Positions 29,001-34,565 of a stretch of 64,000 nucleotides of DNA are shown here, one piece after another. Both the position numbers and the translations under genes were made by a program. The stretch is from Bacteroidales bacterium (GTDB lineage: Bacteria > Bacteroidota > Bacteroidia > Bacteroidales > F082). The notes beneath the pieces are model-generated. The model worked only from the letters and a program-made list of their open reading frames with translations. It was not told the origin of the DNA and ran no database searches. The stretch spans positions 32,409-96,408 of the forward strand of contig JAFPWT010000016.1 in assembly GCA_017394865.1 (NCBI GenBank), given 5' to 3'. Every line of letters starts with the position of its first letter. Position 1 is the stretch's first letter.

Positions 29001-29413
29001 AGAGAGGTGCTTGGTCGGGCGAGATCGACTGGAACGAAGTGAGCTACCCGTTGACGCCTGGGACCCACCGTATAGAATGGAGTTACTCCAAAGACGTATC
29101 CTTCTCAAGCGGCAGCGACTGCGCCTGGATCGACAACGTCATCATCCCCGCCGCCACCATCATCACTGAAGTCGGCGAGGAAACCATCAGCAACGTAACC
29201 CTCTACCCCAACCCCAACAACGGAACCTTCAGCCTCAGCCTGCCTGATGAGGACTGCGACATCACCGTGTTCAACAGCCTCGGCCAAGTGATGCACCACA
29301 GCCAAGGCAACGGCCTGACCACACTCAATCTGAACGGCCTCAGTAGCGGCATGTACTTCATCACCGTGAAGTCGGCAAGCGTCTCAACCACACAGAAATT
29401 CATTAAGGAATGA
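26021..29413 (+). CDS. Gingipain-like C25 cysteine peptidase with T9SS sorting domain
   Basis: 1130 aa. Signal peptide 1-19, then a propeptide of about 190 residues. The C25 domain (about 210-590) begins NAYDILIITSPDFINNYDSY and holds the likely catalytic His449 in HHDGHANT and Cys484 in FFHTQGCDCGAFDE. An Ig-like domain as in gingipains (EPFTATVECASQLVIGTTSF), CARDB-like repeats and a concanavalin-like module (about 915-1045) follow. The last ~75 residues (LYPNPNNGTFSLSL ... SGMYFITVKSAS) are the sorting domain. It would be a surface or secreted peptidase, and the specificity is not predictable. Its stop overlaps the antiporter start (ATGATG). Confidence 0.92.
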   Translation: MKKLLLITLFSMVYAFSYAQTVEMNYSFEKPNITTLQGYEQIQLRGCMQSAMAGQPSLPWQSVSLMLPQGQEAESVEVILSDFRELEGVHEVFPYQPSRTTNDFTSRPLVKDEQLYASKAVYPAQNHGMVTTQYKNGFAFAFSAFTPVQYIPATGQVMYAQKATVRVHTKAAKADHSAMLWATPEVKNSVRRLAQNPEMMSTYNTKGREVNAYDILIITSPDFINNYDSYRAYYNTIGLRNRIVSTSEIYSAMTGVDNQDKIRNYIIQEYQNNGILMVVLGGDVDLVPYRGLYCYVTSGGGNQESNNIPADLYYCGLDGTWNDNGNNRYGEPGEDDLLPEIGMSRMSFQTETDLANMINKTLSYQQNPVLGEFHKVILAGEHLYDNPNSNGSDYLELLIGTHDDNGYTTTCYPVDFDFTKLYEEQGNWSGSLLRNAINAGTSYVHHDGHANTGYVAGWYSIDNNDFTGANGITHNFTFFHTQGCDCGAFDENCILERMVKIPNFAVAVIGNSRYGWFNEGQTEGPGCHLEREMTDAQWNDRIGLLGCAISEGKCMTAPWVTAPGQWEEGALRWNFYDMNVLGDGAVNVWLDEPFTATVECASQLVIGTTSFEVTITDDNGTPQKNFRCLVYMDDEVIAMGCTGEDGIAEISFEGGLQNVGAMTMKVTGVNAWPQEVELLAVPSNTPYVVYDSYSLSNDVEQIDFGGSYAFDITMKNVGNVNASNVTATLFTDSEYITINEATATVGNLNGNQSITLENVFAFSVSDNVPNNTPVRFNLSCTDGTDTWESHFNARVYAPEFEMVSITMETETGSYLSPGDGGTVQFVFKNKGGATAPSVRFDVYNSHPEISLSPNQWTFGEMAPEQEFTVEMSFTIGDDASIGAMYELPYAVQHGQYLLFDSYYIPVGQSMEGFETGDFSAFDWHNGSIITAWEVVRENPYEGNYCAKSSAISDYETSTLYIDLDVAIAGNITFFLKVSSESGYDKLNFIIDNQERGAWSGEIDWNEVSYPLTPGTHRIEWSYSKDVSFSSGSDCAWIDNVIIPAATIITEVGEETISNVTLYPNPNNGTFSLSLPDEDCDITVFNSLGQVMHHSQGNGLTTLNLNGLSSGMYFITVKSASVSTTQKFIKE

Positions 29414-30804
29414 TGCCCCAAGACAGCATACAACAAGTCATCGACACCATCGACACCATCGCCAACGATTCCGTTGCCCAAGAGTTGGTGCAGCAGACGG
29501 CCAAGGCTAACGCAGATTCCAACACTGGACTGGTCATCGCCTTCATCGGTCTGCTCATCTTCGCTGCGCACTTATTCACGGAGATCTTCAGCCGGAAACG
29601 CATCCCCGATGTACTGCTATTGATGATCATCGGCCTATTTCTTGGCCCAATCTTCCACTTGGTGAAGCCAGAGTATTTTGGGTCGGTGGCTAGCGTCTTT
29701 ACCACAATCACCCTTGTTATCATCCTGTTCCAGAGCGGCACCGAGCTGAACTTCAACACCTTGTTGAACTCCATCCGAGGTACAGCGAAGCTCACGCTGA
29801 TCAATTTCTTCATCACGATGATTGTAGTGGCGCTCCTGGGATTGATCGTAAAACTCGACTTCCTCACCAGCCTGATGCTGGGTGCCATCCTCGGCGGCAC
29901 CTCGTCGGCAGTGGTCATCCCCATGGTGAGCCAGTTGAAGATCAGCCAGAAAGGAGGTACCATTCTCATCCTTGAGTCGGCATTCAGTGATGTGCTATGC
30001 ATCGTCTTCGCTTGGGCTTACCTGCAAGCCATCCAGTCGGGAGGCGCAATGAATGTCGGCAAGGTTCTTGGTGACATCATCTCCTCCTTCATCCTGGCTA
30101 CCGTCATCGGCGTAATCTCTGCCATCCTTTGGTCGTATGTGCTTGAACGCGTACGCCACGTCAAGAACTCCATCCTGACCACGCCAGCCTTCGTTTTCAT
30201 CGTCTACGGTTTCAATGAATGGTTGGGGTTCAGCGGTGCCATCGCAGCGCTGGCTTTTGGCATTGGCATGGCCAACATCGACTCCATGTACAATAGCGGC
30301 ATCGTGATAAAGAAAATGTTCAAAAACGGTGAACCGACCAAGCTCAACGAGACCGAGAAACAACTCTTCAGCGAGGTCGTTTTCCTGTTAAAGACCTTCT
30401 TCTTTGTATATATCGGTGTCAGCATCCAGCTCAACCAACTTGTTCCCATCTTAATGGGTCTGGCCATCGCTGTAGTGCTGTTTGCATTGCGCATCCCCAT
30501 CGTCATGGCATCTGTCCATAGTAAGAAAGACAGCACCATGCCCATTGAGGACAAGATCTTCATGTCGGGCATTGTTCCCAAAGGACTGGCGGCGGCTGTA
30601 CTGGCCACCATCCCAGTGCAGAAAGGCATCGAAGGCGGCGAAATGATCCAAAACATCGTGTTTGCCGTCATCCTGTTCAGCATCATCTTTACTTCCGTGC
30701 TGGTACCCGTACTAGAAAAAGACAACGCCATCAGCCGTTTCTACAAGCGTTGGTTCACCCCCAAAAAGGATCCTACGATCAAGGAAATACTCGAAGAAGA
30801 ATAA
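29410..30804 (+). CDS. Cation:proton antiporter, copy 1
   Basis: 464 aa. A Ser/Gln-rich N-terminal stretch of about 35 residues precedes about 12-13 membrane helices. Antiporter features are FSRKRIPDVLLLMIIGLFLGP, LILFQSGTELNF, GAILGGTSSAVVIPMVSQL, and FGIGMANIDSMY. It should exchange Na+ or K+ for H+. It starts inside the stop of the C25 peptidase gene (MMPQ..., ATG 29410 or 29413). It is closely paralogous to the next gene, with strings such as FAAHLF, RRIPDVL and TTPAFVFI shared. Confidence 0.87.
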   Translation: MMPQDSIQQVIDTIDTIANDSVAQELVQQTAKANADSNTGLVIAFIGLLIFAAHLFTEIFSRKRIPDVLLLMIIGLFLGPIFHLVKPEYFGSVASVFTTITLVIILFQSGTELNFNTLLNSIRGTAKLTLINFFITMIVVALLGLIVKLDFLTSLMLGAILGGTSSAVVIPMVSQLKISQKGGTILILESAFSDVLCIVFAWAYLQAIQSGGAMNVGKVLGDIISSFILATVIGVISAILWSYVLERVRHVKNSILTTPAFVFIVYGFNEWLGFSGAIAALAFGIGMANIDSMYNSGIVIKKMFKNGEPTKLNETEKQLFSEVVFLLKTFFFVYIGVSIQLNQLVPILMGLAIAVVLFALRIPIVMASVHSKKDSTMPIEDKIFMSGIVPKGLAAAVLATIPVQKGIEGGEMIQNIVFAVILFSIIFTSVLVPVLEKDNAISRFYKRWFTPKKDPTIKEILEEE

Positions 30805-30822
30805 TCCAAGTGAAAAACGAAG

Positions 30823-32346
30823 ATGGACAGTACCAATCAAATAGGAGCCTTCAACGCTGCCAATGCAGCCTATAACGATTTGTCATCAAGCAAGATCGGC
30901 CTGATTATTGCCATCATCGGTCTGCTCATCTTTGCCGCCCACCTGTTCAGCTCCATCTTCAGCAGAAGAAGAATTCCCGACGTGCTATTCCTGATCCTGA
31001 TCGGGTTAGTACTCGGCCCACTCACCCACGTGGTCGATCCTGATAGAATCAAACTTTTGGGGAGCATCCTCTCAGCCGTCACCTTGGTGCTGATTCTATT
31101 TGAAAGTGGGATCCAATTGAGTTTCAACACTTTAAAAGACTCATTTTGGCCTTCTCTGAAACTAACAGCGGCAAACTTCATTATCTCGGCCATAGCTGTA
31201 TGGCTAGTGGCTTGGCTAGCGTTGAAGATCGATCCTATCATCAGTTTGATGTTGGGTTGCGTACTAGGCGGCACCGCCTCGGCTGTGGTCATCCCTACCG
31301 TGCGACAACTCCGGATGTCGCAGAAAAGCGCCACCATCCTGATCCTGGAAGCCGCCATCGGCAACGTGTTTAGCATCGTGCTTGCCTTGGCCTTATTGGC
31401 AGCCATCAAGTCACAACACGTTGAGTTCGGAATGATCTTCGGCAACATCTTCTCTTCATTCATCATTGCCACCGTCATCGGCCTCTTCGGCTCTATCTTC
31501 TGGGCATTGATTCTGGACAAGGTACGCGAAATCAAGTATTCCGTTCTCACAACTCCCGCCTTCGTCTTTATCATCTACGGCATCAACGAATGGATGGGCT
31601 ACAGCGGCGCCATCGCCGCATTGGCTTTCGGCATCGGCATGGCCAATATCGATGGCATCTACGACTCATTGCTCAGAAAAGTCATCAAGAAACGTCCCGC
31701 CAACCTCAACGACACCGAGCGTGCCCTCTTCAGCGAGCTGGTACTGCTGCTCAAAACCTTCTTCTTCGTCTATGTAGGCATGTCCATCCAGCTCAACGCC
31801 TGGCAGCCCATCGTCATTGGCCTGGCAGGTACCGTGATGCTCTTCATCCTACGCGTCCCCATCGTACGTCTGGCCATCTCCCGAAAAGACAACATCCCCG
31901 ACAAGGAGCTGATGTTCATGTCGGCCATCGACCCCAAAGGATTGACGGCAGCGGTTCTGGCGACACAAGCCGTCGCCTACATCCCCGAAACAGAGACCCT
32001 CTTTATCAACAGCGTGGAATTCCCCACAGGATTTTTTATCCGTAACGTGGTATTCTCGGTAATTCTGTTCAGCATCGTCATCAACTCCATCTTGATTCCG
32101 CTGATCTCTCGTGAGAAAGGCCTGTACCGTTTCTACAGCCACACCCTCGCCTTCCATCAGAAGATGAAGAACGTGGTCTCAAATACCAAACAAAAACAGG
32201 CCGAAAAACTGAGAAAAAACGAGAAAGCCCGCGAATTCGCCGACGAGATGTTCTACTCTGATGTAGTCGCCGACGTCTTCAAAGATCAAGATACACCAGG
32301 CGCACTCAACCACCCCATGTCGAACAACTCCGATGTTGCCGACTAA
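30823..32346 (+). CDS. Cation:proton antiporter, copy 2
   Basis: 507 aa, a paralogue of the preceding gene along its full membrane part (IGLLIFAAHLFSSIFSRRRI, LGCVLGGTASAVVIPTVRQL, AALAFGIGMANIDGIYDSL). It carries an extra cytoplasmic tail of about 70 residues rich in Lys, Glu and Asp (KNVVSNTKQKQAEKLRKNEK onward), with coiled-coil character. The two copies may form heterodimers or differ in regulation; this is inference. Spacing is 18 nt before and 15 nt after, so it is probably in one operon with the kinase-AAA gene. Confidence 0.87.
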   Translation: MDSTNQIGAFNAANAAYNDLSSSKIGLIIAIIGLLIFAAHLFSSIFSRRRIPDVLFLILIGLVLGPLTHVVDPDRIKLLGSILSAVTLVLILFESGIQLSFNTLKDSFWPSLKLTAANFIISAIAVWLVAWLALKIDPIISLMLGCVLGGTASAVVIPTVRQLRMSQKSATILILEAAIGNVFSIVLALALLAAIKSQHVEFGMIFGNIFSSFIIATVIGLFGSIFWALILDKVREIKYSVLTTPAFVFIIYGINEWMGYSGAIAALAFGIGMANIDGIYDSLLRKVIKKRPANLNDTERALFSELVLLLKTFFFVYVGMSIQLNAWQPIVIGLAGTVMLFILRVPIVRLAISRKDNIPDKELMFMSAIDPKGLTAAVLATQAVAYIPETETLFINSVEFPTGFFIRNVVFSVILFSIVINSILIPLISREKGLYRFYSHTLAFHQKMKNVVSNTKQKQAEKLRKNEKAREFADEMFYSDVVADVFKDQDTPGALNHPMSNNSDVAD

Positions 32347-32361
32347 CAAAACACATTCAAT

Positions 32362-34161
32362 ATGAGTATTTTTTCCCCAGGAAGCACGATTGAAAACTAT
32401 AAAGTCCTGCATCTGATCAAGCAGAACGAATATACCGAGACCTACAAGGTGGTGAACGAGAACGACAACCCTTATTTCATGAAGGTGTATGTCATGAAAC
32501 GAACCCCTGAGAAACTCATCGACAAAGGCACCAAGGAGGTCATCGAAATCGCGTTAATCAGAAAGATACAGCATAAAAACATCGTATCTTACATTAAACA
32601 CGGAAGGTTCATCAGCAACGTCGGCGAATGTCAATATGTGATTACCTCCTATTTCACCGGCGAAGTGCTTGCCGACAAAATCGCTCGCGAAGGAGTCTTC
32701 AGCCAAGAAAAAGCGATGGAGATCTTCAACGGCATCCTTTCGGGACTGAAAGCACTCCATGAGCTCAACATCTGCCACAACGACATCACGCCAGGCAACA
32801 TCATGCTCTCATCAAGCATGGACGGCACGCCAGAGATCATCGACATGGGACACGCCGCCAGAGCCTGCAAAGGCACCATTCCCTTCGACACCGCCGACCT
32901 CGACCCCATGTACTGCGCCAGCGCCAACTCGGCAGGGGTCTTCGACGAGCGTACCGACCTGTTTTCAGCCACGGCAGTGCTATATACGATGCTGACTGGA
33001 AACGCACCATGGGAGTTGAATTTCTCTCCTGAAATGCCCTTTGCCCAGAAGATGCTTAAGATAAAGCGGTTCCGGCTCGACAATCCTCTTGATTTCAGCA
33101 CATTGAATGTCAACAATACCTTGAAGCAGGTCATCAAGAAAGGTCTCTCCCCTTCCATCATGGATGGTTACCAGTCCGTCAACGAGATGCAAGCCGAGTT
33201 GCGTGGCGATAAGCTGGATTCAACAAACAATAACACTTCAGGGGTGGCTTCCCGCTCAAGCGAACCCGACAAAGACAAGGACGAAGACGATCACACAGCC
33301 CTCGACATTGTCGTCAAAAAAGGCAATGGACATGGCTTTGAGGACATCGCCGGAATGCACGAGCTTAAGGATCTGCTTCAAAAAAAGGTGATCTTTGTAC
33401 TGCAGAACAAAGCACTGGCCGAGGAATACAAACTCACGCCTCCCAACGGCATGTTGCTCTACGGTCCTCCCGGATGCGGCAAGACCTTCTTCGCCGAGAA
33501 ATTCGCCGAACAGACAGGCTTCAGTTTCATCCTGATCAAATCGTCGGATCTCGCCAGTGTCTACGTCCACGGAAGCCAGGAAAAGATCGGCAAGCTGTTC
33601 AAGGAAGCCGAGGCCAACGCTCCCACTGTGCTCTGCTTCGATGAATTCGACGCCTTCGTCCCCAACCGCTCCGCCCCGGGGAGCTCTTACGTCTCAGGCG
33701 AGGTGAACGAGTTCCTCACACAACTCAGCAACTGCTCGAAACGCGGCATCTTCGTAGTGGCCACCACCAACCGTCCCGACATGATCGATCCGGCAGTGCT
33801 CCGTACCGGACGCCTCGACAAGCACATCTATGTTCCAATGCCCGACCACGATGCGCGTAAGGAGATGTTCGCCATCTACCTGAAAGGCAGGCCCTACGAG
33901 GCAGAAGCTATGGATCTCGATGCACTCTCCGACCTCACCGACGGGTACATCGCCAGCGACATCGCCTTTATCGTGAACGATACCGCCATGAACGCGGCCT
34001 TCACCCACGTCAAAATCACCCAGGCCATGATCGAAGAGACCATCCGCAACACCAAGCCCTCCATCAACAAAGAACAATTGAGGACTTACGATGTCTTGCG
34101 CGACAAAATGGAAGGTCTGGAGCGGAGTAACGCTTTGCCACCCATTGGTTTTAGAAAATAA
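32362..34161 (+). CDS. Protein kinase-AAA+ unfoldase fusion
   Basis: 599 aa, cytosolic. Residues about 10-285 are a Ser/Thr kinase-like domain. It has the beta3 Lys41 (YFMKVYVMK), a catalytic loop H139-N-D141 with Asn146 (HNDITPGNIML), D161-M-G in place of DFG, and RTDLFSATAVLYTMLTG. The glycine-rich loop is degenerate (no GxGxxG). After an acidic linker (about 285-325), residues 325-580 are a classical AAA+ module of the Cdc48/PAN/FtsH clade. It has Walker A GPPGCGKT (368-375), a pore loop YVHG (401), Walker B VLCFDEFD, sensor-1 ATTNRPD, and arginine fingers in RTGRLDKH. The kinase domain may sense or select substrates for the ATPase. It lies 20 nt upstream of the YbjN-like gene. Confidence 0.82.
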   Translation: MSIFSPGSTIENYKVLHLIKQNEYTETYKVVNENDNPYFMKVYVMKRTPEKLIDKGTKEVIEIALIRKIQHKNIVSYIKHGRFISNVGECQYVITSYFTGEVLADKIAREGVFSQEKAMEIFNGILSGLKALHELNICHNDITPGNIMLSSSMDGTPEIIDMGHAARACKGTIPFDTADLDPMYCASANSAGVFDERTDLFSATAVLYTMLTGNAPWELNFSPEMPFAQKMLKIKRFRLDNPLDFSTLNVNNTLKQVIKKGLSPSIMDGYQSVNEMQAELRGDKLDSTNNNTSGVASRSSEPDKDKDEDDHTALDIVVKKGNGHGFEDIAGMHELKDLLQKKVIFVLQNKALAEEYKLTPPNGMLLYGPPGCGKTFFAEKFAEQTGFSFILIKSSDLASVYVHGSQEKIGKLFKEAEANAPTVLCFDEFDAFVPNRSAPGSSYVSGEVNEFLTQLSNCSKRGIFVVATTNRPDMIDPAVLRTGRLDKHIYVPMPDHDARKEMFAIYLKGRPYEAEAMDLDALSDLTDGYIASDIAFIVNDTAMNAAFTHVKITQAMIEETIRNTKPSINKEQLRTYDVLRDKMEGLERSNALPPIGFRK

Positions 34162-34181
34162 ATTTTCAAATATATAGCGTA

Positions 34182-34565
34182 ATGAAAACATCAGAACACG
34201 TATTCGATTATCTCAGAAACCAAGGTCTCGTGCCCAAATACGATGATCGCGGCAACATTGAGTTCAAATACCAGATGCGTTCTTTCATCTTTTTTTCCAA
34301 CGACGATGATGCGCAGTTTTTCCAACTGACCATGCCTTCCATTTTTGAGGTCACCGACGACAACCGCATGGCAGCCTTGGAGGCCATGAACGAGATCAAC
34401 GACACCACCAAAGTGATCAAACTCACTGTCACCAAGAGCAACCACGTATGGGAATCCACCGAGATCATGCTCGACAGCACTCCTGAGCTTGACGACCTAT
34501 TCCCTCGCCTGCTGAACATCCTGCTGAACACACGGCAGGCCTTCTATAAACTCATGGAGGTCTAA
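34182..34565 (+). CDS. YbjN-like small protein, probable partner of the kinase-AAA protein
   Basis: 127 aa, no signal peptide. The layout resembles YbjN and type III secretion chaperone-like folds: an N-terminal helix (SEHVFDYLRNQGLVPKYDD), strands (IEFKYQMRSFIFFSNDDD; FFQLTMPSIFEV), a helix (NRMAALEAMNEINDT), strands (KVIKLTVTKSNHVWESTEIM), and a C-terminal helix. YbjN-type proteins have been linked to stress and motility regulation in E. coli, and the fold often binds partner proteins. It is tightly spaced between the fusion gene and a radical SAM gene. An adaptor role is inference from context. Confidence 0.6.
   Translation: MKTSEHVFDYLRNQGLVPKYDDRGNIEFKYQMRSFIFFSNDDDAQFFQLTMPSIFEVTDDNRMAALEAMNEINDTTKVIKLTVTKSNHVWESTEIMLDSTPELDDLFPRLLNILLNTRQAFYKLMEV

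Follow-up and report, generated by a model that had tools for sequence, protein, structure and literature searches.

What does a protein-kinase fold do on a Cdc48-like AAA+ motor, and what ties the gene to the small YbjN-like gene that follows it? The question is raised by two genes in a 64,000-nucleotide stretch of a Bacteroidales genome (the window; contig JAFPWT010000016.1, positions 32,409 to 96,408). The first encodes a 599-residue fusion of a kinase fold and an AAA+ domain, and the second, 20 nucleotides (nt) on, encodes a 127-residue YbjN-like protein. This arrangement had been proposed in a sequence-only reading, and the open reading frame (ORF) and Pfam results bear it out. Our answer is that the two genes probably specify one protein-remodelling machine from a chaperone-linked family, in which the fusion would be an AAA+ remodeller with an ATP-binding kinase-fold head and the small protein a chaperone acting as client adaptor. 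We put the probability of this reading at about 0.62. It builds on the domains, motifs, selection, gene adjacency and group-specific partners that we observe.

The family was compared in an alignment of 63 distinct sequences, the window's included, sorted by hand into group I (8 sequences, the window orthologues), group I′ (5), three long-branch neighbours (L063, L071 and L072), group II (25, a paralogue type), group III (17) and group IV (5, divergent). The full-length rows linked to a YbjN-like gene number 37 and come from groups I, I′ and II; they are called the YbjN-linked rows below. Kinase motif names and numbers such as Lys168 follow the PKA-based convention. The features of the two genes are:

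32362..34161, plus strand: fusion gene, 599 residues from an ATG, with a kinase-fold N-terminal part and a single AAA+ domain (ORF, Pfam and the 63-sequence alignment)
32425..33066, plus strand: protein-kinase fold, residues 22-235 (Pfam Pkinase PF00069, E 4.1e-26)
32416..32451, plus strand: place of the glycine-rich loop, residues 19-30, IKQNEYTETYKV; glycine-free, with K20, E26 and Y28 invariant in the 37 YbjN-linked rows
32482..32484, plus strand: K41, the beta-3 lysine, invariant in 37/37 YbjN-linked rows
32776..32784, plus strand: catalytic loop HND, residues 139-141, an HRD with Arg changed to Asn (alignment)
32842..32850, plus strand: DMG, residues 161-163, the DFG equivalent (alignment)
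33202..33327, plus strand: fast-evolving linker, residues 281-322, 12-50% identical to five orthologues, with flanks at 57-90%
33451..33837, plus strand: AAA+ domain, residues 364-492 (Pfam AAA PF00004, E 1.7e-34)
33463..33486, plus strand: Walker A GPPGCGKT, residues 368-375; Lys374 in 63/63 rows
33562..33564, plus strand: pore-loop aromatic Y401; Tyr, Phe or Trp in 62/63 rows
33628..33645, plus strand: Walker B VLCFDE, residues 423-428; D427 in 62/63 and E428 in 63/63 rows
33802..33813, plus strand: arginine fingers R481 and R484; R481 in 63/63 rows, R484 in 38/63, with Cys in all 25 group II rows
34182..34565, plus strand: small YbjN/TY-chaperone-like protein, 127 residues from an ATG, 20 nt past the fusion (Pfam)

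Every motif named in the sequence-only reading, from Lys41 to the arginine fingers, is present, and the glycine-rich loop is absent as it had stated.

The AAA+ part carries the motif set of an unfoldase: Walker A and B, sensor 1, arginine fingers and a pore-loop aromatic. The sensor-1 asparagine is retained in 61 of the 63 rows, and the other positions are conserved as listed above. The best-scoring models are Cdc48 TIGR01243 (188 bits against a cut-off of 803) and TIGR01242/PAN (148 against 500), and the best of 987 PDB sequence matches are VCP-like ATPases and p97/Cdc48. The likeness to Cdc48/p97 and PAN extends to the pore-loop aromatic, the Walker motifs and the two arginine fingers. However, the window protein has one AAA+ domain where Cdc48 has two, it bears a kinase-fold head, and its scores are far under the cut-offs; by score and domain number it lies outside TIGR01243. 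The kinase fold itself clears the Pfam Pkinase gathering score (92.4 versus 31.7 bits).

The small protein matches YbjN PF10722 with an E value of 2.9e-6 (28 bits, cut-off 22) and TY-Chap1 PF22551 with one of 6e-4, which is under that family's cut-off. Among 18 aligned members, the YbjN match is found in 15 and the TY-Chap1 match in 9 (E up to 1). In the accessible portions of PMC5398634 and PMC3575483, YbjN proteins are given a fold like that of class I type III secretion chaperones and are thought to work by protein contacts. The window protein resembles this YbjN/DR1245/TY-Chap family in its small size and its score, and the likeness to secretion chaperones recurs in the accessible portion of PMC9503650. 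It differs in being linked to a kinase-AAA+ fusion, whereas the TY-Chap families in that portion belong to ADP-ribose-linked systems. Six PDB matches to the YbjN-like profile were rejected as chance matches: the two below 0.001 are designed proteins matched in several weak pieces, followed by ORC5 and others. YbjN-like stretches also occur in two exported-looking ORFs of 544 and 146 residues (L158, 698-2779), on a 4.8-kb contig with no fusion.

Both domains and the small gene are under purifying selection, and the locus is more than a chance arrangement. Against the L009 orthologue (84% identical), the ratio of nonsynonymous to synonymous rates (dN/dS) is 0.074 for the kinase part, 0.058 for the AAA part, 0.068 for the small gene and 0.163 for the linker, and across five orthologues it is 0.07-0.26, 0.06-0.12 and 0.05-0.21 for the kinase part, the AAA part and the YbjN-like gene, values that are rough because dS exceeds 1 in every computable comparison.

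Partner genes were sought by profile search of all ORFs around each locus. A YbjN-like gene adjoins the fusion at 8 of 8 group I loci, 5 of 5 in group I′ and 25 of 25 in group II, a total of 38 of 38; at L061 it lies upstream of the fusion rather than downstream. The YbjN profile has 51 matches in 100 genomes (the window's own and 99 relatives), and 47 of them are on the same strand as a fusion match and within 800 nt of it. Co-occurrence of the two genes was the check suggested in the sequence-only reading, and it holds by both counts. A YbjN neighbour accompanies 46 of the 58 fusion or AAA rows from these genomes. Of the other 12, five belong to group III, three are divergent or have a swapped head (G021:C12, G034:C6, G049:C47), G027:C32 lies at a contig edge, G036:C61 is the first half of a gene counted via its second half, and two are gas-vesicle-type AAA proteins. 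In group IV, L160 holds two YbjN-like copies, and none was found at L051, L052, L073 or L164, the last at a contig edge. A better argument for pairing than the count of 38 is that a YbjN-like neighbour is common to groups I, I′ and II, whose remaining neighbours vary from group to group. These data identify the fusion and the adjacent YbjN-like gene as a conserved unit. The window's own genome (2.08 Mb, 19 contigs, 73% complete) carries a second such unit that the sequence-only reading had missed. Its full-length fusion (G000:C5:118208-119935; L002, L045) is of the group II type and 35% identical to the window's, and its own YbjN-like gene follows with a 4-nt overlap. The two genes overlap by 4 nt in 16 of the 25 group II pairs (predicted starts, first start codon taken), which suggests translational coupling.

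Tight pairing and probable coupling would equally fit an antitoxin-like or inhibitory role, and the YbjN-like protein would then be a client or inhibitor of the fusion rather than its adaptor. We regard this as improbable. YbjN-like genes are found with no fusion in the stretch read (L157, L159), and the accessible portion of PMC9503650 describes YbjN/TY proteins as peptide-binding chaperones.

The adaptor reading draws on a sister group as well. We did not detect a YbjN-like gene in the stretches examined at any of the 17 group III loci, and 13 of the 17 share one gene run: an NPYRxLGL protein, a coiled-coil protein, an Hsp70, the fusion and a TerB-like protein. These YbjN-less relatives in an Hsp70/TerB operon had also escaped the sequence-only reading. 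The NPYRxLGL ORFs are 486-674 residues long, and most start NPYRxLGL or NPFRxLGL. The coiled-coil protein (295-345 residues) has a signal-like start by eye and looks exported. The Hsp70 has 826-854 residues (HSP70 E 6e-62 in L070), and all 10 TerB-like members examined match the Pfam TerB family (E up to 1; the best, 6.3e-7). On the Haliscomenobacter hydrossis plasmid (L165, 3802-11327) the annotation reads, in order, CFI-box protein, septum formation initiator, Hsp70, AAA family ATPase and TerB, and BREX genes adjoin. In some loci Hsp70 and the fusion are separated by extra genes, and TerB is one gene off in L048. Of the remaining four loci, L018 is a short contig with Hsp70 and TerB, L176 has no TerB in the ~530 nt available downstream, and L177 has TerB and a J-like gene downstream on a contig that ends just past Hsp70. 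L074 has Hsp70, a 91-residue NPYTILGL protein and a GrpE-like protein (2.9e-9), with no TerB.

A J-domain was considered for the NPYRxLGL protein and rejected. Its N-terminal 90 residues gave 15 PDB matches, 11 of them named DnaJ, with a best E value of 0.042; nine members gave no Pfam DnaJ match at E up to 1, and no HPD is present. The protein may be called weakly J-like. ClpB, DnaK and DnaJ form a bichaperone system, and group III resembles it in having an AAA+ remodeller whose gene neighbours include an Hsp70 and a weakly J-like protein, with the GrpE-like gene in L074. It differs in that the AAA+ part is of the Cdc48 type and not Hsp100, the J-like part is without HPD, the motor has a kinase-fold head, and none of these genes lies beside the window pair. 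Because group III sits in an Hsp70 setting, a protein-handling role is the most economical reading of the family.

The machine that we propose would work as follows. The fusion would assemble into a single-ring AAA+ hexamer and pull clients through a pore lined by Tyr401. The kinase-fold N-domain would bind ATP and act as a regulatory or docking head. The YbjN-like protein would bind clients or the head and hand clients to the ring, and the window's group has this small chaperone where the sister group has the Hsp70/J-like/TerB set.

Several observations weigh against this proposal. The 38 adjacency loci are not independent because 32 of them come from the window's own genus, and four of the 51 YbjN matches lie away from any fusion (G013:C5, G080:C8 twice and G046:C106). 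The long-branch sequences near the window's group, L063, L071 and L072, have no YbjN-like gene in the stretches examined. The YbjN-like fold is assigned by Pfam alone, since PDB sequence searches with the small protein and its profile returned no YbjN entry, though crystal structures of the YbjN family exist in print. The ATPase of the group II paralogues may be impaired because their second arginine finger is a cysteine. Finally, nothing ties the window pair to an Hsp70: a search of its own genome gave no TerB-like gene, a weak negative at the completeness given above, and the one full Hsp70 match there is on a contig other than the window's.

What the head does was approached through its catalytic residues. 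The window head has the beta-3 Lys, the HRD Asp, the catalytic-loop Asn and the DFG Asp. These residues, K41, D141, N146 and D161, are invariant in all 37 YbjN-linked rows and in all 16 rows left after dropping those at least 80% identical. Invariant columns number 28 of 280 in the kinase part of the YbjN-linked rows, and four random columns would all be invariant with p ~8e-5. Such constraint argues for an active Ser/Thr kinase that would phosphorylate clients or the YbjN-like partner and so gate the AAA+ ring. L176, with GEGAFGEVY, HRD and DFG, has near-canonical motifs and the only full glycine loop. In the window protein the loop glycines are all lost (IKQNEYTETY stands at its place), which puts phosphotransfer by the head in doubt. 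The HRD Arg is Asn in 37/37 YbjN-linked rows, the Lys168 position is Thr in 8/8 group I rows, and E62 is not invariant in the YbjN-linked rows. All 8 group I rows, the window's included, have lost the APE Glu, which every group III row and every full-length group II row retains.

PrkA offers a comparison. It consists of the PrkA AAA and PrkA C-terminal domains, and neither is among the 25 of 27 Pfam families listed for the window proteins. According to the accessible portion of PMC13001217, Bacillus PrkA also joins an AAA+ motor to a kinase-like domain without a P-loop, and no kinase activity was detected for the B. anthracis protein, which was ascribed to the missing P-loop. The domain order of PrkA is reversed relative to the window fusion. 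We consider an active kinase plausible at somewhat under even odds.

The catalytic residues are degenerate elsewhere in the family. Group III is more diverse, with 19 invariant columns, and the equivalents of K41, E62, D141, N146 and D161 are not among them. The catalytic Asp is replaced in 15 of its 17 rows (Glu in 11, Asn in 2, Gly in 1 and Ser in 1) and kept in 2, the Lys is kept in 16 and the DFG Asp in 14. Group IV has lost both Lys and Asp in 5 of 5 rows. Groups III and IV lose catalytic residues, so the family tolerates a dead head, and the AAA+ part of L052, a group IV member, carries a leucine-rich-repeat region in place of the kinase fold, so the head is exchangeable. These data point to a pseudokinase that would serve solely as a docking or sensing N-domain, and we give this close to an even chance; the catalytic residues are nonetheless invariant exactly in the window's YbjN-linked rows. 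The sequence-only reading had spoken of a kinase-controlled remodeller. The four invariant residues would fit kinase activity, but control by a kinase does not follow from them, with the glycine loop and the APE Glu lost and the HRD Arg and the Lys168 position replaced. At L052 (7731-9551, minus strand) the leucine-rich repeats are of the BspA type, and an upstream 304-residue ORF matches the NPYRxLGL-protein profile.

The family can be drawn together in a broader picture, which we hold tentatively and think unlikely as a whole. Its members would be kinase-headed, single-ring Cdc48-like unfoldases with exchangeable feeders, either Hsp70/J-like/TerB or a TY-type chaperone. A phosphotransfer site that is constrained alongside the small chaperone may gate client loading, and this site would have mostly decayed alongside Hsp70. 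Defence islands may have recruited members of the TerB group.

The last point bears on whether the system is an anti-phage defence module. Six of the 17 group III loci lie near BREX (L165), type I restriction-modification (L173), a NACHT protein (L176), an OLD-family ATPase (L069), a phage-type integrase (L174) or a relaxase (L064), a count that rests on neighbours picked by eye and scanned with Pfam, without a background rate. IetAS defence consists of IetA and an adjacent IetS protease. PADLOC models match both halves of the window fusion, IetA the AAA part only (8.3e-31) and PD-T4-6 the kinase part, and each spans half of the protein. Of the genes scanned, two on each side of the fusion, those upstream are Na+/H+ exchangers and those downstream are the YbjN-like gene and a radical SAM gene. 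The exchanger-type genes form a tandem pair directly upstream of the fusion (29410-32346; Pfam), an order repeated in several relatives of the same genus, and the radical SAM gene downstream of the pair is of the tRNA-modifying MnmL/YtqA type. A single-protein query, which picks up only close relatives, matched no viral contig, and none of 179 matching phage records covers 80% of the query. A defence role is quite unlikely on these data. The phage response raised in the sequence-only reading is unsupported for the window copy and merely hinted at for the TerB group; its interpretation as a whole is partly supported. A phage or plasmid origin was rejected on the same viral and phage searches and on the plasmid records, where 2 of 2057 matches cover 80% of the query: the full-length relative in H. 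hydrossis and a Thermococcus peptonophilus record. In the latter (L166, 3341-6968), the kinase, the Cdc48-like AAA protein and a PP2C phosphatase are encoded by separate, neighbouring genes.

The distribution of the family was examined at three depths. Matches at E 1e-40 or better occur in 42 of the 100 genomes, chiefly of the same genus, and an even sample across the phylum has E 1e-100 matches in 6 of 395, the window's own included. Among the best 80 loci of a named-genome scan, 20 (L057-L075, L080) reach kinase-part residues and the other 60 start at residue 275 or later. The 20 come from Bacteroidales metagenome-assembled genomes (MAGs), Prevotella, Muribaculaceae, an Alistipes MAG, Empedobacter, Daejeonella, Plebeiobacterium and one MAG labelled Clostridiales. 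The family is mainly in Bacteroidota. Gas-vesicle-type clusters (L161 and L162, named by eye) were left aside as AAA-only matches. In a quick tree of 53 sequences, which has several long end branches and an unsure placement of L062, the partner labels YbjN, TerB and none need 4 changes, where shuffled labels average 15.8. Groups II and III come out as one clade in the kinase-part tree and in the AAA-part tree alike, and groups I and I′ together need 2 and 3 changes, respectively. The recovery of groups II and III by both trees indicates that the two halves have been inherited together from the split of those groups onwards, if not longer.

To our knowledge, few bacterial Cdc48-like motors have known partners, and YbjN proteins have no agreed client. 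The conserved pair and the sister Hsp70/TerB operon provide direct, testable partners for both, and the groups span a natural series, with a kinase site retained in one group and for the most part lost in another. AAA+ chaperone-type remodellers are already known. No description of a kinase-AAA+ fusion with YbjN, or of the five-gene operon, was found among the papers listed from the literature searched, which was largely without subscription journals, and the kinase-headed, YbjN-paired form is apparently undescribed there. The sequence-only reading had likewise known of no bacterial system with this gene order. The two domains are not always separate in the relatives, nor is the small gene never adjacent, and no characterised family of the same architecture was met in that literature. 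The accessible portions of PMC7159879 and PMC11090510 deal with other AAA+, Hsp70 and kinase conflict systems.

Neither an Rfam match above the gathering score nor a tRNA was found in the window. Upstream of it, ~38 kb from the gene pair, three kinase-fold matches lie close together on the minus strand (G000:C15:22468-26857) in open frames of 468-581 residues.

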